A stretch of DNA of 6,000 nt from an uncultured Collinsella sp. (GTDB lineage: Bacteria > Actinomycetota > Coriobacteriia > Coriobacteriales > Coriobacteriaceae): contig CABUTH010000116.1 in the NCBI GenBank assembly GCA_902494465.1, positions 1 through 6,000 of the forward strand, in the 5' to 3' direction. The notes below the pieces were generated by a model that worked only from the letters and a program-made list of their open reading frames with translations, had not been told where the DNA came from and ran no database searches. The position numbers were made by a program, and so were the translations under genes. Below, in pieces: positions 1 through 6,000 of this stretch. The number at the start of each line of letters is the position of its first letter. Position 1 is the first letter of the stretch.

Positions 1-426
1 GATAAAGCCGTTGGAGGCCATAAAGTTGAGGGCGCTCATAATGCCCAGCAGCAAGCCCGAAGCCACGATGGCGGGGATGATGGGGACAAAGACGTCGCCG
101 AGCACCTTAATGGCACGCATAAAGATGTTCTGCTGCTGCGCCGCGGCCTCCTTGACCTCGGCCTTGGTGGCAGCCTCGACGCCGCTGACCGCAATGAACT
201 CGTCGTAGACCTTGTTGACGGTGCCAGTGCCAAAAATAATCTGGAGCTGGCCTTGGGCCTCAAAGACGCCCTTGGCGCCGTCGATATTCTCGAGGGCCTC
301 CGTGTCGACCTTGGCGTTATCGGCAATCACCAGGCGCAGACGCGTGGCGCAGTGTGCGGCCGAAACAACGTTGCCGGCGCCTCCGACGTTGTCGAGCACC
401 TCTTGGGCTGATTTACGGTAGTCCAT
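1..426 (-). CDS. scrA: Sucrose-type PTS transporter subunit EIIBC, N-terminal part (runs off the window)
   Basis: The first 142 codons are present; the gene continues beyond position 1. The protein would import and phosphorylate a disaccharide, most likely sucrose, at the cytoplasmic membrane using phosphate from EI/HPr/EIIA. Residues 1-80 form a glucose-family EIIB domain. Its phosphorylation site is Cys26 in the motif AAHCATRLRL, and QIIFGTGTVNKVY follows at about residues 62-74, a sequence I associate with ScrA proteins. After an Ala/Glu-rich linker (about 84-98) the EIIC membrane domain begins with VFVPIIPAIVASGLLLGI, again very close to ScrA. Full-length relatives have about 450-650 residues, depending on whether an EIIA domain is fused; this cannot be seen here. 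The ATG start is backed by GGAGG 11 bases upstream and by the normal family N-terminus MDYRK. The gene lies downstream of a LacI-type regulator in the same direction, with two operator-like palindromes in between. Trehalose or beta-glucoside specificity is the main alternative. Confidence 0.85.
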   Translation of the reverse strand, partial: MDYRKSAQEVLDNVGGAGNVVSAAHCATRLRLVIADNAKVDTEALENIDGAKGVFEAQGQLQIIFGTGTVNKVYDEFIAVSGVEAATKAEVKEAAAQQQNIFMRAIKVLGDVFVPIIPAIVASGLLLGIMSALNFMASNGFI

Positions 427-437
427 GACTTCCCTTT

Positions 438-442
438 CCTCC
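438..442 (-). promoter_or_regulatory. Ribosome binding site of scrA
   Basis: GGAGG on the minus strand, with 11 bases (427-437) between it and the ATG at 426. It is the only good Shine-Dalgarno match near the start and fixes the start of the EIIBC protein. Confidence 0.7.
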
Positions 443-469
443 AACGGGCGCATGTACACCCGGCCATCT

Positions 470-608: not shown

Positions 609-1589
609 CTAGACATTCATAAGCTGATGGCCGAGCTTGAGCGTCTTTAGACCGCTCTCCCCCTCCACGCCATCGAGCGTGTTGATCAGCATATTGGTCG
701 CCTCGACGCCACTGGTCAGGTAGCCATAATGCACGGTGGGAATGCCGCCCGTCAGCGCGCGCAAAAACGCGTTGTCGCCAAAACCGCTTACGCGATGCAT
801 GCCCTCGCCCACGCCGCGAACCTCATCGATGGCACGAAGCGCGCCCGCCGCCATGGTATCGGTCGCGCACGCGATAAACGAAACATCGGGAGCGGCAGAA
901 AGCAGTTCACGCGCCGCACCATAGCCCGAGTCGAGCGTAAACGAGCCCAGACGAATCAAGGCGGCATCGAGCGGGTTACCCGCGGCGCGCAAGCCGGCCT
1001 CAAAACCGCGACGGCGGTCATAACCAGCCGCGCGGTCCTCCTCGGTAACCCCAATGTAAGCGATCTTGCCGTCCACGCGACCCGCAAGCGCATGGCCCAG
1101 CTCAAAAGCGGCCTCGTAATCGTCGTGATACACGCACGCCGCGCCCTCGACATGTTGACCGATCAGCACAATGGGCACACGGCACGAGTCAATCGCGCGA
1201 CGGTGCTCGTCGGTGATCATGGTTGCCACCAGCACAATGCCGTCAACCGGATGGTTTTGGAATAAATCGAGGTATTCGAGCTCGCGATCGGCCGCATTAT
1301 CGGTATTGGCAAGCAGCATCTGGTAGCCACGGCGACCGAGCACCTGGCCAATGCCGGCGGTAATGCGGCTCACGGATTCCGAGTTGATCTTGGGCACGAT
1401 GACGCCGATGAGCTTGGTGGAGCCGGTGCGCAGCGCGCGAGCCTGACTGGACCGCACGTATCCGGTCAGTTCAATCGCCTGCTTAATGCGCTGGGCCTTG
1501 TCCGCCGAGATATATCCGCCGTTGAGGTAGCGCGAGACGGCGGCGCTCGAAACGCCGGCCAACTCGGCCACATCTTTCATCTTTACCAC
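609..1589 (-). CDS. scrR: LacI-family transcriptional repressor, ScrR-like sucrose regulator
   Basis: Predicted 326-residue DNA-binding repressor that senses a sugar and controls the neighbouring PTS gene. From the chosen start, residues 1-50 form the LacI helix-turn-helix region: KDVAELAGVSSAAVSRYLNGG, with the hinge helix near ARALRTGS. The periplasmic-binding-protein-like sensor domain starts at about residue 60 with KLIGVIVPKINSESVSRI and continues through LLANTDN, VDGIVLVAT, VYHDDYEAA, KIAYIGVTEEDRAAGYDRRRGF and FGDNAFL, all typical of the ScrR branch. Length is normal for the family. The GTG at 1587-1589 is preferred because AGGGG (1595-1599) lies 5 bases upstream and the protein then begins MVKMKDVA, as in relatives. 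ATG at 1580 is also possible. ATG at 1604 or 1661 would place operator O3 or the promoter inside the gene and lacks a ribosome site. Sucrose as inducer is inferred from the ScrA-like neighbour. O3 on its promoter suggests autorepression. Confidence 0.85.
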   Translation of the reverse strand: MVKMKDVAELAGVSSAAVSRYLNGGYISADKAQRIKQAIELTGYVRSSQARALRTGSTKLIGVIVPKINSESVSRITAGIGQVLGRRGYQMLLANTDNAADRELEYLDLFQNHPVDGIVLVATMITDEHRRAIDSCRVPIVLIGQHVEGAACVYHDDYEAAFELGHALAGRVDGKIAYIGVTEEDRAAGYDRRRGFEAGLRAAGNPLDAALIRLGSFTLDSGYGAARELLSAAPDVSFIACATDTMAAGALRAIDEVRGVGEGMHRVSGFGDNAFLRALTGGIPTVHYGYLTSGVEATNMLINTLDGVEGESGLKTLKLGHQLMNV

Positions 1590-1604
1590 GAGCACCCCTG
1601 TCAT

Positions 1605-1618
1605 TGAAATCGCTTTCA
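1605..1618. promoter_or_regulatory. LacI-family operator O3 at the repressor's own promoter
   Basis: TGAAATCGCTTTCA is a third perfect match to TGNAANCGNTTNCA, with its centre at 1611-1612. It begins just 2 bases past the predicted -10 box (1621-1626), so it covers the expected transcript start, and it lies 6 bases upstream of the AGGGG ribosome site. A repressor bound here would block initiation of its own gene. Confidence 0.8.
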
Positions 1619-1620
1619 CC

Positions 1621-1650
1621 ATAATACCCGTGAAGACGGCATCCGAACAA
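1621..1650 (-). promoter_or_regulatory. Predicted promoter of the repressor gene
   Basis: On the minus strand TATTAT (1621-1626) matches the -10 consensus at 5 of 6 positions. TTGTTC (1645-1650) is a partial -35, with an 18-base spacer. The predicted start of transcription falls inside operator O3, giving a short leader of about 25 bases before the GTG start. The -10 is convincing, the -35 weak. Confidence 0.55.
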
Positions 1651-1680
1651 AATCGGCCCACCCAGGTCGAGCAAACGTCA

Positions 1681-1786
1681 GCGAGCGGGCAACTGCCGTG
1701 GCGAGGTGCCGCGAAAGAGGAGCGAAGCGTACTTTATGTACGCGAGCGACGGTTTGAGCGGCAGATCGCCCGGCAGATGCCCGCGC
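1681..1786. repeat. Long imperfect palindrome (hairpin element) in the intergenic region
   Basis: Reading inwards, these segments are mutual reverse complements: 1681-1683/1784-1786, 1686-1691/1778-1783, 1693-1698/1771-1776, 1700-1704/1766-1770, 1707-1712/1758-1763, 1714-1716/1753-1755 and 1727-1732/1738-1743. The apex is the loop TTTAT (1733-1737). Mismatches between segments are mostly 1-2 bases, apart from a looser internal loop around 1717-1726 and 1744-1752. The element lies between the end of the DUF4956 gene and the repressor promoter. It resembles a palindromic intergenic repeat or miniature mobile element, or a structured RNA transcribed behind the operon. No coding potential is evident and no transposase is present. 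Copy number elsewhere in the genome cannot be seen. Confidence 0.6.
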
Positions 1787-1798
1787 AGCGTCGAGCGG

Positions 1799-1822
1799 TC
1801 CGGCGTTTGTTAAAACGCCGGA
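1799..1822. other. Perfect 10-bp hairpin directly behind the DUF4956 stop
   Basis: The arms 1799-1808 and 1813-1822 are exact reverse complements around a 4-base loop (GTTA). The hairpin starts 6 bases after the TAA stop of the DUF4956 gene on the minus strand. There is no T-run behind it on either strand, so it is not a classic intrinsic terminator. It may protect the 3' end of the operon mRNA, assist termination together with the adjacent long palindrome, or be part of that element. Confidence 0.5.
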
Positions 1823-1828
1823 ACATAA

Positions 1829-2494
1829 TTAGCCGAGGTATTCGCCGTAGTACTGGATGAGTGTGAGGTCCTCCACGCCGTCAAGCGCGCGAATAGCGTC
1901 CGCATAGGGCATGTCAACGCCGTCCGAGAAGAGCTCGACGGCCATCTCGACTTTGTCGCCGCGCATCGTCTTAGACTTGACGGTGAACTTGGTGCGCCCA
2001 AACGCGCGCACGATATCGTCGCCGGTGGTCTGGCCCGTGTAGTGGATGACCATCATGTACACGCGCGCCTTGTCCTGGTGGCTCGCAAAGCCGGCGATCA
2101 TCACCACGATCACCACTGCCGTAAGCCCCACGAGCGCATACATGCCGGCGCCTGCCGTAATGCCCGTGGTAATGGCCCAAAACAGATACAGCAGGTCGAG
2201 CGGGTCCTTGACCGCCGTACGGTAGCGGACGATGGACAGAGCACCGACCATACCGAGCGAGATGACCACGTTGGTCGAAATCGCGAGCGTGACCATGCAG
2301 GAGAGCTCGCACATGCCCACAAGCGTCACGGCAAAGCTACGCGAATACACCACGCCGGTAAAAAAGCGCTTGTACACGTAATAGATCAGGATGCCCATGG
2401 CGAGCGCCACGAGCAGCGAAAGGCCAATCTTGGCAGGGTCGACCTGGCCAAACGCCTCCAAGACGGAGTTCTTAAAAAAGTCCCTGGTGCTCAT
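1829..2494 (-). CDS. DUF4956 family membrane protein
   Basis: Membrane protein of 221 residues and unknown biochemical activity. Hydrophobic segments lie at about 22-41, 53-74, 76-89, 99-111 and 113-136. The DUF4956 signature SLGMVGALSIVRYRTAVKDP spans residues 79-98 and is followed by LDLLYLFW. The last 75 residues (from about 145) form a soluble, ferredoxin-like alternating beta/alpha stretch ending in LTLIQYYGEYL. Length is usual for the family. GAGGGG lies 11 bases upstream of the ATG. Proteins of this family are known to occur next to VTC-domain and CotH-domain genes, and the same neighbours are found here, directly upstream in the same direction. It is the last gene of the presumed operon. 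A role as membrane partner of the VTC-type enzyme, for example in passing a phosphate polymer or a nucleotide across the membrane, is only inference from that linkage. Confidence 0.88.
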   Translation of the reverse strand: MSTRDFFKNSVLEAFGQVDPAKIGLSLLVALAMGILIYYVYKRFFTGVVYSRSFAVTLVGMCELSCMVTLAISTNVVISLGMVGALSIVRYRTAVKDPLDLLYLFWAITTGITAGAGMYALVGLTAVVIVVMIAGFASHQDKARVYMMVIHYTGQTTGDDIVRAFGRTKFTVKSKTMRGDKVEMAVELFSDGVDMPYADAIRALDGVEDLTLIQYYGEYLG

Positions 2495-2497
2495 GGT

Positions 2498-2635
2498 CTA
2501 AATATCCCCTCGGTTCTCAAAATCCGATTCCCAGTAATTAAATCCGCGCAGGTAGGCGGTCTTTTCGTAACACAGGCAGTACTTGGAGACCGCCGTAAGC
2601 TCGGCCGCTCCCGGCGGCACCATATCGCGCACCAG
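2498..2635 (-). pseudogene. Detached C-terminal coding stretch of the VTC-domain gene, downstream of an amber codon
   Basis: Directly after the TAG at 2636-2638 the same frame stays open for 45 codons, starting LVRDMVPPGAAELTAVSKY and ending at a TAG at 2498-2500. That second stop lies 3 bases before the DUF4956 start. The segment contains the Ser-Lys-Tyr motif (residues 235-237 if the amber counts as 218), which closes the VTC fold in relatives. The lack of further stops or frameshifts suggests a recent point mutation or a base-call error. An in-frame ATG at residue 223 has no visible ribosome site, so separate translation is unlikely. Confidence 0.75.
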
Positions 2636-3289
2636 CTACGGGCAAAACTCCGTAAACTTGACCTCCATCACCAGCTTGCCGGGCTCCAGGACCGGCAGCG
2701 CGGGCAGCGTCGCGTCAAAGATATCGAAGCTTCCCACCGCGGCACGCACGTTCATGTCAAACGTAATGCGCACAGTGCCCTCATCCATCACCCACGGCTC
2801 GCGCTCGTAATCCACGATGGTCCTCGGGCGCATCACGTTGCAGATGCACTCGATGTAGAACTCGCGACAGAGCGGATAGGGGCTCCTCAGCAAAAAGTCG
2901 TAGTCGCCAGCCAGAATCTGCTCAAACTCGCCGCGCGTAAGTGGCGCATCCTCCTTGTAGATCCAGCTGCCGTACTTCTTTTTGCGCTCGAGCTTAATCA
3001 CCTTGTCGCTGCCGTTATAGATGCGCACGCGATACTTTTTGCGCATGAGAATACCGGCGTCTTTTTCCTCGTAGGCCGAGTTGCAGTAGTCGTCAAAATA
3101 CAGGCTGCGAATGGTGTAACCACCCGCCCGTGTATGCTTGTCCAGCTTAAACACCGACGCCATGCGACAGGCAAGCGCAGTGTGCTCGCCCTCGTTAATG
3201 AGATATTTGAGCTCGTGGCGGTAACGCTCCTGCGTGGCACGCACAGGCGGGGCCGCCCAGCGCTCAAGCAGCGCGCTAGCCCTCCTCAT
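2636..3289 (-). CDS. VTC-domain protein (polyphosphate polymerase-like), cut short by an amber codon
   Basis: Encodes 217 residues up to TAG at 2636-2638. The intact gene would have had 263 codons. The family includes the catalytic domain of yeast Vtc4, which makes polyphosphate from ATP in a tunnel lined with basic residues. Visible family motifs: RHELKYLI (24-31), RSLYFDD (61-67), RKKYRVRIY (83-91), KLERKKKYG (99-107), YIECICNVMRPR (145-156), VRITFDMNVR (173-182) and VMEVKF (207-212), where Glu209 probably binds metal. The product lacks the C-terminal strand/helix with the SKY motif, so it may be inactive or unstable. No signal peptide or membrane segment is seen, so it should be cytoplasmic. 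The ATG start has GGAGG 6 bases upstream and overlaps the end of the CotH gene by 14 bp, implying coupled translation. Whether the bacterial protein makes polyphosphate is not shown by sequence alone. Confidence 0.85.
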   Translation of the reverse strand: MRRASALLERWAAPPVRATQERYRHELKYLINEGEHTALACRMASVFKLDKHTRAGGYTIRSLYFDDYCNSAYEEKDAGILMRKKYRVRIYNGSDKVIKLERKKKYGSWIYKEDAPLTRGEFEQILAGDYDFLLRSPYPLCREFYIECICNVMRPRTIVDYEREPWVMDEGTVRITFDMNVRAAVGSFDIFDATLPALPVLEPGKLVMEVKFTEFCP

Positions 3290-5045
3290 ACGTGTCCTCC
3301 ACGACCTTACCGCCGTCTTGCACGTAAAAACACTTCATGCCGTAGTGCTTGCCGTCGTCGGTCACATAGTAGTCAAACGCATCTTGCGTATAGCCGTCGG
3401 AGTTGGTGGCACGCACGCGCACAAAATACTGGCCGGTATCGGGCGCATCGCAGGTCACCTCGGGAAGCAGCACGTCCTCGGCCTTAAAGACCACATCGCC
3501 AATGGCATAGTCGCGCGCCAGCTCCACGGTGTAGCGAATGTCGCGCGCCTCAAAGTCGTAGGACGCATCCCAGTTAATGCGCAGCTTGCCGTTATCGATC
3601 TGCGGCACGCCGATGTAGAACGGCATGGGCTTTTTATAGCTCTCGCGGAAGCTCTTATAGTTCTCCTCGATCTCGGAGGGAATCGCCGCGGCAATCTGCT
3701 TGTATTGGTCCTTGGTGACAGGCAGATTGTCGATATCGGGCGAAGCAAAGACCAGGGATTCAGTCACCTCACGGTAGTGCCTGATCATCTTGGTCAGGCG
3801 AGTCTCGGTCAAATACGAGCGCAAGTCCTTGACGGCACGGTCGAGTTCGCTGCGGAACGACTTGCTACGCAACGCGCGGTTAAACAGCACGTTGCCCCAG
3901 TAGTTGCTTACGCCGCGCTCCCAGCTCGCATAGTCCGAAAACCCCTTCAGGCTCAGCTCCAGCTTACGCAGCATGCCGTCGTTATCCCAATCCAAAAAGT
4001 ACCAGGTATTTGAGTTGAGAGGGCTGTACAGATAGCAGTTGCGGTTCTGCGTATCGCAGTTGCCCGTCAGGATCTGAAACGCCAGCCAATAGACCAGATT
4101 CTCGGTATCAAAGTAGGTGTCGAGCACGTTATCAATCTTTTGCGATTCGTCATTGAGCGCATCGAGCATCTCGATGAGCTTGGTGTGGTCCGAATCGCCC
4201 TTAATCTCGAGCATGCCCTCAAAGTTTGCCTGGTTGTAATCGGGATCATCGGCAAGCTTAATGGTGTCCTCGTAGCGATGGAAATCGAAGTTGTTCACCT
4301 TGTACAGATGTCCGTTCTTATCCAAGCCGTGTGCCTTAAGCGCCGTTTTATTGAGCTGCTCCACCTGCGTAAACAGGCCGTAGTCCTCAAAGGTGTGGTT
4401 GGACTTTTCGGTCTGGTCGCACACCCACAGATGCACAAACTGCGTGCGCAGGCCCATCATCTGGGGAATCCCACGGATAAGATCGTAGGCCATCTTGTTG
4501 CGAAAACGCATACCCTCGCCCATGTGCTTGTTAAGCGCAATCGCGCGCTGTTGGCGCCAGGTACCCTTGCCCTTTTTGAGCTCCACCTTGTAATTCTTCT
4601 GCGTATAACCGCTCGACGTCTGGCCGCGCACCTGCACAGTGGCATTGGGCGCGTCCTCGCCATAGCCAACCTCGCCGGCCACCGGGCCGTCTTCGTCGCC
4701 TGGCTGCAGCAGGCCCATAACCTGATAGCGCGTCACGCCCATGTCGGCATAGTCATACACCGAGTACGTATTGATCTCGGCCCAGCTGTGGTCGGTGTTC
4801 TCGGAGCTGTTACCGCGCGAGACCGTCAGGTACATGGTCACAATGCCCGAGTCGTCGTAGACCTCGTACAGCTCGTCCTTATCGCGCAGGTGCTTGGTAC
4901 CGTCCGAGGACTCGGCCTTTTTAATCTTGTCCTGCTTTTTGACCTTGTTGGTCGAGGATTCGTCCTGAGACGAGCAGCCCGAAAGCAACAGCGCGCCGGC
5001 AGCCGCCTCGATCAGGCAGCGGCGAGACATCAACTTATCGATCAT
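3276..5045 (-). CDS. CotH kinase family lipoprotein with C-terminal fibronectin-like domain
   Basis: Predicted 589-residue surface lipoprotein. The N-terminus has an Arg pair, a hydrophobic stretch (about 11-22) and the lipobox LSGC with Cys24 as the lipid anchor. A Ser/Lys/Glu-rich linker follows (25-58). The CotH kinase-like domain spans about 65-470: RGQTSSGYTQKNYKVELKK (140-158), GLFTQVEQLNK (223-233), GNCDTQNRNCYLY (328-340) and DWDNDG (352-357), the likely metal-binding acidic motif. Residues about 476-562 look like a fibronectin type III domain (KLRINWDAS to YFVRVRATNSDGY). CotH of Bacillus phosphorylates spore coat protein; this neighbourhood shows nothing of sporulation, so a surface or secreted substrate is more likely here. 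The start at 5045 has GGAGG (5051-5055) 5 bases upstream and overlaps the preceding PelG gene by 11 bp. A longer frame up to 5201 runs inside that gene and is rejected. The target and kinase activity are unproven. Confidence 0.88.
   Translation of the reverse strand: MIDKLMSRRCLIEAAAGALLLSGCSSQDESSTNKVKKQDKIKKAESSDGTKHLRDKDELYEVYDDSGIVTMYLTVSRGNSSENTDHSWAEINTYSVYDYADMGVTRYQVMGLLQPGDEDGPVAGEVGYGEDAPNATVQVRGQTSSGYTQKNYKVELKKGKGTWRQQRAIALNKHMGEGMRFRNKMAYDLIRGIPQMMGLRTQFVHLWVCDQTEKSNHTFEDYGLFTQVEQLNKTALKAHGLDKNGHLYKVNNFDFHRYEDTIKLADDPDYNQANFEGMLEIKGDSDHTKLIEMLDALNDESQKIDNVLDTYFDTENLVYWLAFQILTGNCDTQNRNCYLYSPLNSNTWYFLDWDNDGMLRKLELSLKGFSDYASWERGVSNYWGNVLFNRALRSKSFRSELDRAVKDLRSYLTETRLTKMIRHYREVTESLVFASPDIDNLPVTKDQYKQIAAAIPSEIEENYKSFRESYKKPMPFYIGVPQIDNGKLRINWDASYDFEARDIRYTVELARDYAIGDVVFKAEDVLLPEVTCDAPDTGQYFVRVRATNSDGYTQDAFDYYVTDDGKHYGMKCFYVQDGGKVVEDTYEEG
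3296..3300 (-). promoter_or_regulatory. Ribosome binding site of the VTC-domain gene, inside cotH
   Basis: GGAGG with a 6-base gap to the ATG at 3289, lying within the last codons of the CotH gene. It decides the VTC start and supports coupled translation of the two genes. Confidence 0.75.
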
Positions 5046-6000
5046 CAGAACCTCCCCAATGCTTTTGGTACAGGCGAACCACCATACGTTCAAACGCACT
5101 GCGCGGCTCACCGCCCACGCGCTTGTCCTCGTAGCGTTGCTCAACACGGTCGAGCACCCGACCAAGTTCGGTAAACCAGCCCGTTTTGTCAGTAGCCACA
5201 ATGGGCTGCTGGCTCAGGATACGATACGGCAAGTTGGCGGTATAGGTATCGAGCCGCAGCAGCGCCACGATAAAAAACACCGCTGCACCCAACAAAAAGC
5301 CAAAGCCGTAAAACTGCTGCGGCAAGAGCAGAGAAACGGCAGTCGCCAGCCCGGCCACACCGGCAAACAGTCCCGAAGCCAGCACGGCCCCCTTGTAGTC
5401 GGTAAAGTACAGCAAGATCAGCAGGATCGTGTTGCCCACGGCATACAGGCCATAGCCCACGCATAACGTGCGGAAATACCCGTGCATCAGGTTGTTAAAG
5501 CCCAACGGTAGGGCCGACAGCACCGTGGTCTCGAGCGAGATGACCGCCGCCGTCACAAACAGTTGCTTGAGCGCACAAAAACGCAGTTCTCGGTTGAGCG
5601 TGGCAAGCATTTCCTCCTCGGCCACCACAATGTCGCCCACCACGCCACCGTCGTTGAACAGGCTGTAGTAGTCGCGGTAGCGCGGATAAAAGTTGACCTC
5701 GACCGAGACCACAAAGTTGACGGACGTGACCAGGATCGTCAAAAACGCGATGAGCGCCGGCACATCGTGGTAGGGCGCACCATAAAACAAGCCCTTGACC
5801 TGCACACCAATGGGACCGGCCCATATTATCACCAAGTGCGCAAAGAGGCCCAGGTTGGTAAACAAGCCCGTGAGCGCCAACGGCAGAAATTGGTCGAGCC
5901 ACCGTAAATAGAGCCAGGGGCTGCGATCGCTCTGCGGAAAATACCGGTACAGCAGCACCACGTCCCAGGCGAGCATCACACCGTAGCCCAGGGCGATCGA
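5035..6000 (-). CDS. pelG: PelG-like exopolysaccharide export membrane protein, C-terminal part
   Basis: The last 321 residues are visible; the gene is open to the window edge and its start lies outside. PelG is the polytopic inner-membrane component of Pel polysaccharide systems, thought to move the polymer across the membrane with the PelF glycosyltransferase. Counting from the window edge, hydrophobic segments lie at about 1-18, 37-60, 80-99, 142-168, 176-200, 205-226 and 232-249. Between them are family-type stretches: GLFTNLGLFAHLVIIW (45-60), VEVNFYPRYRDYYSLFNDGG (100-119) and EEEMLATLNREL (128-139). The C-terminal 65 residues are soluble and charged. Full PelG proteins have about 450-480 residues, so roughly 140 are missing. 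The TAA stop at 5035-5037 lies inside the start of the CotH gene (11 bp overlap), which points to one transcript. Other pel genes (pelF, pelD/E-type) would be expected just beyond position 6000. The weaker alternative is another MATE-like polysaccharide flippase. Confidence 0.85.
   Translation of the reverse strand, partial: SIALGYGVMLAWDVVLLYRYFPQSDRSPWLYLRWLDQFLPLALTGLFTNLGLFAHLVIIWAGPIGVQVKGLFYGAPYHDVPALIAFLTILVTSVNFVVSVEVNFYPRYRDYYSLFNDGGVVGDIVVAEEEMLATLNRELRFCALKQLFVTAAVISLETTVLSALPLGFNNLMHGYFRTLCVGYGLYAVGNTILLILLYFTDYKGAVLASGLFAGVAGLATAVSLLLPQQFYGFGFLLGAAVFFIVALLRLDTYTANLPYRILSQQPIVATDKTGWFTELGRVLDRVEQRYEDKRVGGEPRSAFERMVVRLYQKHWGGSDDR
5051..5055 (-). promoter_or_regulatory. Ribosome binding site of the CotH-family gene, inside pelG
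   Basis: GGAGG with a 5-base gap to the ATG at 5045, contained in the last codons of pelG (in the His-Trp-Gly-Gly region). It selects 5045 as the start, although the same frame extends further upstream. Confidence 0.75.

Follow-up and report, generated by a model that had tools for sequence, protein, structure and literature searches.

The pelDEADAFG clusters of Gram-positive bacteria are reported to carry a second accessory group consisting of genes for CotH, a poly-phosphate polymerase, DUF4956 and the variable member DUF4832; the group was found in streptococci and clostridia, and a bifidobacterial variant was described as well (PMC7112168). Pel-linked CotH is known from non-sporing streptococci, where sporulation is no explanation, and the role suggested for CotH is that of a protein kinase controlling either Pel synthesis or a surface protein (PMC7112168). 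Deletion of SIR_1594 (a CotH homologue) or SIR_1592 in Streptococcus intermedius reduced aggregation and altered the Pel level, which was raised without SIR_1592 and lowered without SIR_1594, and phosphate metabolism was suggested to be involved (PMC12345266). SIR_1592 was read in that study as MgtC plus ACT; it is taken here as the DUF4956 gene from its position and description, as the name DUF4956 occurs 0 times in the text of that paper. The authors of PMC12345266 failed to find the syntenic arrangement beyond the Pel locus. The related yeast VTC polymerase acts through its own membrane channel, which is lined by basic residues and receives the chain (PMC9911596). Here, a 6000-nucleotide stretch of an uncultured Collinsella sp. 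(contig CABUTH010000116.1, assembly GCA_902494465.1; referred to as the window) was analysed, in which PelG, CotH, VTC-domain and DUF4956 genes adjoin. The operon itself is known; what is added is the strict pairing of VTC with DUF4956, a free-standing CotH–VTC–DUF4956 trio and a stop codon in the VTC gene of the window.

The gene layout of the window is given in Table 1, in which coordinates are window positions and family names follow Pfam profile matches. As the original prediction had it, all four families are present, overlapping or nearly abutting; all lie on the minus strand. PelG (as far as the window edge), CotH and DUF4956 are open; an in-frame TAG in the VTC gene had been missed. 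With the CotH start picked from that used by relatives, CotH shares its first 11 bases with the end of PelG; VTC shares 14 bases with the end of CotH, and the ATG of DUF4956 lies 3 bases past the end of the VTC frame. The window PelG shares 91–96% identity over 310–314 residues with PelG of nine Collinsella loci and 91% over 265 residues with that of a tenth, which is cut by a contig end. The nearest relatives of the window CotH are in the same ten loci (91–97% identity). The four genes are real and operon-like.

Table 1. Features of the window.
Feature	Position	Strand	Evidence or remark
PelG, C-terminal 321 codons	5035-6000	-	PF16933 E 1.2e-70; gene leaves window at 6000
CotH-family kinase-like lipoprotein, 589 aa	3276-5045	-	PF08757 E 7e-67; lipobox LSGC signal
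VTC-domain (polyphosphate-polymerase-like) gene frame, interrupted	2498-3289	-	intact relatives have 263 codons
VTC open part, first 217 codons	2636-3289	-	PF09359 E 1.8e-26
In-frame TAG, codon 218 of VTC	2636-2638	-	truncates VTC ahead of invariant lysine 236
DUF4956 membrane protein, 221 aa	1829-2494	-	PF16316 E 2.3e-10
LacI-type regulator, downstream of DUF4956	609-1661	-	Pfam
Sucrose-type PTS EIIBC gene, downstream of DUF4956	1-459	-	Pfam

The order PelG–CotH–VTC–DUF4956 was kept in all ten fetched Collinsella loci (the contig end that cuts PelG falls in one of them), which rules out chance co-location. Upstream, where the original prediction had advised looking for pelF and pelD/E, these genes were present in the relatives: pelF and pelA precede the group in nine of the ten loci, the tenth being cut by a contig end, and PelF, with DUF3492 and glycosyltransferase domains, lies directly upstream of PelG. 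PelE was full in nine loci, PelA was found in nine (one with a stop), and PelD was full in eight and partial in one. One of the loci, L010, reads PelD–PelE–PelA–PelF–PelG–CotH–VTC–DUF4956 with genes overlapping or abutting; its PelA matches PF09960 (DUF2194) with an E value of 1e-170. PelD and PelE gave no Pel-named Pfam match and were identified from position and family alignment. By its sequence, the window holds the 3′ end of an operon for the exopolysaccharide Pel of the Collinsella type, with the published cotH–VTC–DUF4956 accessory group. Core genes and accessory families are common to the Collinsella loci and the described clusters (PMC7112168; SIR_1594-1591, PMC12345266), and the published CotH–polymerase–DUF4956 genes likewise lie, in that order, downstream of the pel genes. 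The linkage of the four families, on whose conservation the original prediction depended, is thus kept in ten of ten Collinsella loci and is published (PMC7112168); the main text of that paper does not name Collinsella. The published group differs in having DUF4832, for which a profile from three Lachnospiraceae copies gave no match in the stretches of the ten Collinsella loci and found the gene in L011–L014; the truncation of VTC in the window is a second difference.

An RxxD motif was invariant in ten of ten aligned PelD sequences of Collinsella and relatives (L010 2110-4248; L103 14289-16256; L104 14394-16361), and no GGDEF motif was visible in these ten. We take the RxxD to be the cyclic di-GMP site. 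In retaining RxxD these sequences are unlike the PelD of S. intermedius, which is reported to be without a GGDEF domain (PMC12345266). Three loci (L102–L104) have long PelD frames of 701–711 residues, two of which, when aligned, are SDR-like by eye. No CotH, VTC or DUF4956 was found in their fetched stretches, and these loci loosen the correlation with PelD stated in PMC7112168.

For the genome survey, 246 Actinomycetota and 299 Bacillota genomes (545 in all) were drawn evenly from a larger group; two centre genomes, G001 and G005, picked since they carry the operon, were included. That the same set was used for the VTC and DUF4956 searches was judged from identical handles, unmatched genomes mostly not being listed. 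At E ≤ 0.001, VTC was matched in 25 of the 246 Actinomycetota and 46 of the 299 Bacillota, and DUF4956 in 25 and 46, with 24 and 45 of the DUF4956 matches above the Pfam cut-off. The genomes with VTC are exactly those with DUF4956 (71 of 71 positives), and they remain so without the centre genomes (24/24 and 45/45). The same three of 14 control genomes were positive for both (Bacteroides ihuae, Corynebacterium glutamicum and Methanosarcina acetivorans). The chance of identical sets is about 1e-34 and 1e-54 if genomes are assumed to be independent, which they are not. A neighbourhood survey, as proposed in the original prediction, placed DUF4956 on the same strand as VTC and no more than 3 kb away in 27 of 28 Actinomycetota and 52 of 54 Bacillota loci. 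For one of the exceptions, L091 of genome G349, a break in the assembly would account for the separation: one contig begins with VTC, and DUF4956 is close to the beginning of a second. No published statement of the VTC–DUF4956 pairing was found in the literature searched, as far as its text was available. The yeast enzyme works through its own basic membrane channel, and an obligate membrane partner is therefore what a translocase would need.

The surroundings of every VTC match were fetched (L001 was used for G001) and searched with profiles grown from the Pel loci. Several fetched stretches end at contig ends, so that the counts of CotH and PelG are lower bounds; assignments were checked by Pfam on samples (CotH 57/57, DUF4956 31/31). 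CotH was found within 2 kb of VTC in at least 18 of the 28 Actinomycetota and at least 32 of the 54 Bacillota loci, and PelG in at least one (the centre genome) and at least two (one the centre), respectively, i.e. in the fetched stretch of at least three of 82 loci, two of them from centre genomes. The trio without PelG in the fetched stretch accounted for 46 of the 82 loci (16/28 and 30/54); the original prediction had noted that CotH, VTC and DUF4956 recur as neighbours in bacteria. The order was VTC–DUF4956–CotH in 34 of these 46 and CotH–VTC–DUF4956 in one. The negative result of PMC12345266, whose authors did not find the arrangement outside Pel, therefore does not hold here as to linkage and nearly holds as to exact order. 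The proposal that VTC follows Pel was rejected (299 Bacillota genomes: VTC in 46, PelG in 11, or 12 at E 0.001, both in three; p 0.23).

Neighbours of the non-Pel trios were counted for 47 loci including L043; three per side gave no ORF by the longest-ORF rule, leaving 44 on each side. No constant polysaccharide partner was seen among these upstream and downstream open reading frames (ORFs). Upstream, among the families listed (25 of 54), were response regulators (9), HisKA histidine kinases (5), GGDEF (4), glycosyltransferases (3) and PGA_cap (3); downstream, no family among those listed (25 of 74) occurred in more than three. Two-component systems may often control the trio where it is free-standing.

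A Pel-type CotH profile, built from nine proteins, some of them from the three genomes named next, matched six of the 299 Bacillota genomes at E ≤ 1e-10; four matches exceeded 760 bits and the next had 81 bits. The matches above 760 bits were in G005 (the centre), G392 (two in tandem) and G423, and PelG was present in all three genomes, for which the chance is 4e-5 given PelG in 11 of 299, kinship disregarded. In G423 the trio is on a contig apart from the pel locus. This CotH subfamily is thus tied to Pel even where the genes are unlinked. Two individual loci were recorded. In L081 (4344-7352) the order is DUF4956–CotH–VTC and the CotH is of the Pel type; the fetched stretch gave no pel match, the pel locus of its genome being on another contig. 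In L066 (5908-9316), a pel locus from Bacillota, a tandem pair of Pel-type CotH genes precedes VTC and DUF4956.

The proteins were compared using alignments hand-picked for spread (A1, 32 VTC rows; A2, 31 DUF4956 rows); 98 VTC and 93 DUF4956 loci were usable. A profile of the 32 VTC proteins matched yeast Vtc4 (PDB entry 3g3q) with an E value of 7e-19, compared with 5e-10 for Vtc2 and 2e-8 for Vtc3, whereas a phmmer search of the PDB with a single VTC sequence gave no true relative. By these scores, intact bacterial VTC is closer to the catalytic Vtc4 than to Vtc2 or Vtc3. Residues K28, R87, R89, K103, K112, R163, R174, E209, K211 and K236 were invariant in 32 of 32 sequences and align, in order, with K200, R264, R266, K281, K294, R361, R373, E426, K428 and K458 of Vtc4; the pairing was counted along the alignment, in part by script, and the last three pairs come from a second aligned stretch that is short and scores low. 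The residues changed to inactivate Vtc4 are R264, R266 and E426 (PMC9911596). The catalytic tunnel domain is thus homologous to that of the yeast VTC complex (Vtc1/3/4, PMC9911596), with the tunnel residues kept in intact relatives. Unlike the yeast complex, a 263-residue relative has by Pfam the VTC domain alone, with no SPX, and the candidate membrane partner is a separate DUF4956 protein.

For CotH, nine near-identical or duplicate loci, and matches weaker than 1e-10, were left out before alignment. Residues D327 and D350 (numbering of 3276-5033) were at least 90% conserved in 57 CotH proteins. We take this to be the catalytic pair, equivalent to D228 and D251 of Bacillus subtilis CotH, with which the 23-residue spacing agrees. 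The two aspartates, as counted along the alignment, pair with D224 and D247 of chain 5jd9_A, a spore-coat CotH kinase with a homologous kinase domain, and both are kept in the window CotH. The window protein differs from 5jd9 in being a lipoprotein, with about 130 residues ahead of the kinase domain, encoded in a Pel operon. A hydrophobic N-terminal stretch was present in 63 of 65 CotH ORFs of the fetched loci (by a lenient script, near-copies counted), and by this signal CotH faces outward. A C-terminal FN3-like region of the window CotH is assumed solely from the description of SIR_1594.

In the model of DUF4956 (mean pLDDT 73), helices lead into a C-terminal domain that is ACT-like (residues 141–219), and R90 and R92 were invariant in 31 of 31 sequences. 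No sequence relative was found in the PDB. Foldseek and VIA matched just the C-terminal domain, with the MgtC C-terminal domains 2lqj and 7qa5 among the matches; Foldseek gave no match to the model at an E value of 0.001 or better. Membrane helices ahead of an ACT-like domain at the C-terminus would thus be shared with the MgtC family, from which DUF4956 differs in its Pfam assignment: 31 of 31 members were assigned to DUF4956, PF02308 (MgtC) matched three of them weakly, and it did not match the window protein.

The reading preferred here, to which we give a probability of roughly 0.4, is that VTC and DUF4956 form a polyphosphate synthase-translocase that serves an extracytoplasmic CotH acting on Pel or a Pel-associated target. 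VTC would make polyphosphate; DUF4956 would provide the membrane path or anchor for its product; the polymer or its phosphate would reach the lipoprotein CotH outside the membrane; and CotH, with polyphosphate or ATP as its donor, would phosphorylate either Pel itself or a surface target associated with Pel. We infer a synthase and membrane path feeding CotH from the tunnel residues of VTC, the outward CotH and the ACT-like DUF4956 with R90/R92, taken together with the yeast channel. The gene order, the complete operon in relatives, the conserved active-site residues of intact VTC and of CotH, the outward signal of CotH and the strict pairing speak for it. As a whole, the observation behind the original prediction is partly confirmed and its interpretation, phosphate or polyphosphate modification of an exported glycan or surface protein, partly supported. 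The coupling of the trio to Pel on which that interpretation rested is supported, as a role in Pel biology, by the S. intermedius deletions (PMC12345266) and does not stand as a general linkage, PelG being found in so few of the VTC loci.

Several points weigh against a synthase-translocase that serves CotH. The literature, in the parts available, holds no report of polyphosphate, phosphorylated Pel or kinase activity for the trio, and effects are reported for deletions of cotH and of the gene in the DUF4956 position and none for deletion of the polymerase (PMC12345266). One DUF4956 match per phylum falls below the Pfam cut-off, and VTC lacks an adjacent DUF4956 in L030, L091, L096 and the divergent Collinsella Pel locus L042. 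VTC–DUF4956 without CotH within 2 kb is common (10/28 and 20/54 loci). Eight of the 11 Bacillota genomes with PelG above the cut-off are without VTC, so that Pel does not require the trio, and genomes of this phylum that have PelG show no enrichment of VTC (p 0.23). The membrane part of DUF4956, modelled within the whole protein, gave no structural match, and the modelled ACT-like domain would fit a regulator as well as a translocase.

In the strongest competing explanation, CotH is an ATP-using protein kinase regulating Pel synthesis or a surface protein, and VTC and DUF4956 belong to phosphate homeostasis or signalling (an MgtC-like ACT regulator) and are merely co-regulated. This follows the suggestion of PMC7112168 and is close to the published reading of SIR_1592 (PMC12345266); the ACT-like fold and the weak PF02308 matches of three DUF4956 proteins agree with it. 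It leaves unexplained why VTC and DUF4956 are never apart in 545 genomes and why they lie near an outward kinase in the 46 loci without PelG. In addition, the RxxD retained in Collinsella PelD, presumably a cyclic di-GMP site, means that another route of regulation may exist already. We consider this explanation somewhat unlikely.

In another explanation, exported polyphosphate is itself useful: being anionic, the polymer would bind to Pel that is partly deacetylated and hence cationic, or crosslink it, at the cell surface, with CotH as an anchor. The intact tunnel residues in relatives and the strict co-occurrence of VTC and DUF4956 are compatible with this, as is the description of Pseudomonas aeruginosa Pel as cationic and binding DNA and other anionic polymers (PMC12345266). 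S. intermedius Pel, in contrast, may be mostly neutral GalNAc (PMC12345266), and the absence of any report of polyphosphate for the trio in the available literature counts here too, leaving this explanation very doubtful.

The VTC frame of the window has stops at codons 218 and 264, and the truncated gene has 217 codons compared with 263 in intact relatives. Past the TAG the frame is still recognisably VTC and runs to a stop at 2498-2500. The codon-218 stop was absent from all ten other Collinsella loci, in nine of which VTC is uninterrupted (263 residues); the tenth, L004 (genome G002), has a different in-frame stop, TGA, and a stop in PelA. The lost piece includes K236, the equivalent of Vtc4 K458, so that the tunnel residues are incomplete in the window copy and complete in intact relatives. 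Because it is truncated before this invariant lysine, the window VTC is probably inactive, and the polyphosphate step has probably been lost in this strain while PelG, CotH and DUF4956 stay open; the TAG may be either a true stop or a base error in the window assembly.

Similar wear was seen elsewhere. The 43 Collinsella genomes gave PelG in 11, CotH in 11, VTC in 13 and DUF4956 in 13, and all four genes at 90% identity or more in ten, with some copies broken; G020 has a divergent Pel–CotH–VTC locus (L042), which DUF4956 does not adjoin. L002 has a frame break in PelD, DUF4956 of G009 is split over two frames, G038 retains DUF4956 and a fragment of VTC with no PelG or CotH match, and in proteins P0030 and P0046 pieces of VTC and DUF4956 are fused, as a deletion would leave them. 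The accessory group is patchy across Collinsella and worn away in places. On a further explanation, the accessory group is decaying in this strain, so that the product of the locus would be ordinary Pel, or no Pel at all, and the trio would have ceased to matter. This would account for the window stop, these broken copies and PelG in just 11 of 43 genomes, yet is very improbable given three open genes in the window, an uninterrupted VTC in nine of ten other loci and the possible base error.

The narrower idea that VTC alone decays in Collinsella was dropped in view of the PelA stop in L004 and the PelD frame break in L002, the latter near a contig start. Two other Collinsella loci were noted: L020, a non-Pel VTC–DUF4956–CotH set with stops in VTC and DUF4956, and L044, a remnant of the Pel type in which DUF4956 and a fragment of VTC are left.

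Downstream of DUF4956 the flank differs between strains: the LacI gene was matched in L002, L003, L004, L006, L007 and L008, with no match in the stretches of L001, L005, L009 and L010. A promoter and terminator scan of 1600-3400 gave nothing informative. A sporulation role for CotH was set aside, as the other window genes are the LacI-type regulator and the PTS gene and Pel-linked CotH occurs in non-sporing streptococci (PMC7112168); the original prediction had likewise noted that no sporulation gene explains CotH, and the same point is made for streptococci in that paper.

A quick tree was calculated from the joined VTC and DUF4956 alignments (82 loci; SH-aLRT support, without bootstrap), ten near-identical or duplicate loci having been left out beforehand. 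On this tree the Pel label has to change twice, each time inside a larger radiation of non-Pel loci. The first Pel group comprises the Collinsella, Lachnospiraceae and Angelakisella loci and adjoins the non-Pel locus L070, with Collinsella nested inside a Bacillota group; the second, L066, stands apart. On the simplest reading of this tree, the module already existed when it entered Pel operons, perhaps on two occasions, and Collinsella acquired it by transfer from Bacillota. A broader version of the synthase-translocase reading, in which VTC and DUF4956 are the prokaryotic counterpart of yeast VTC, a two-gene polyphosphate synthase-exporter of bacteria and archaea, exported polyphosphate is the donor for CotH-family kinases and Pel operons captured the module, is in our estimate unlikely. 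If true, polyphosphate would be a phosphoryl donor outside the cell, where ATP is scarce, and Pel operons would have captured the module to phosphorylate or polyphosphorylate the exopolysaccharide.

The synthase-translocase reading offers an answer to the question of the phosphate source of an extracytoplasmic kinase, and DUF4956 is a leading candidate for the role of membrane partner to the VTC enzymes of bacteria. As the pair is strict and the trio mostly non-Pel, the pair can be studied in a harmless and tractable host without any Pel.

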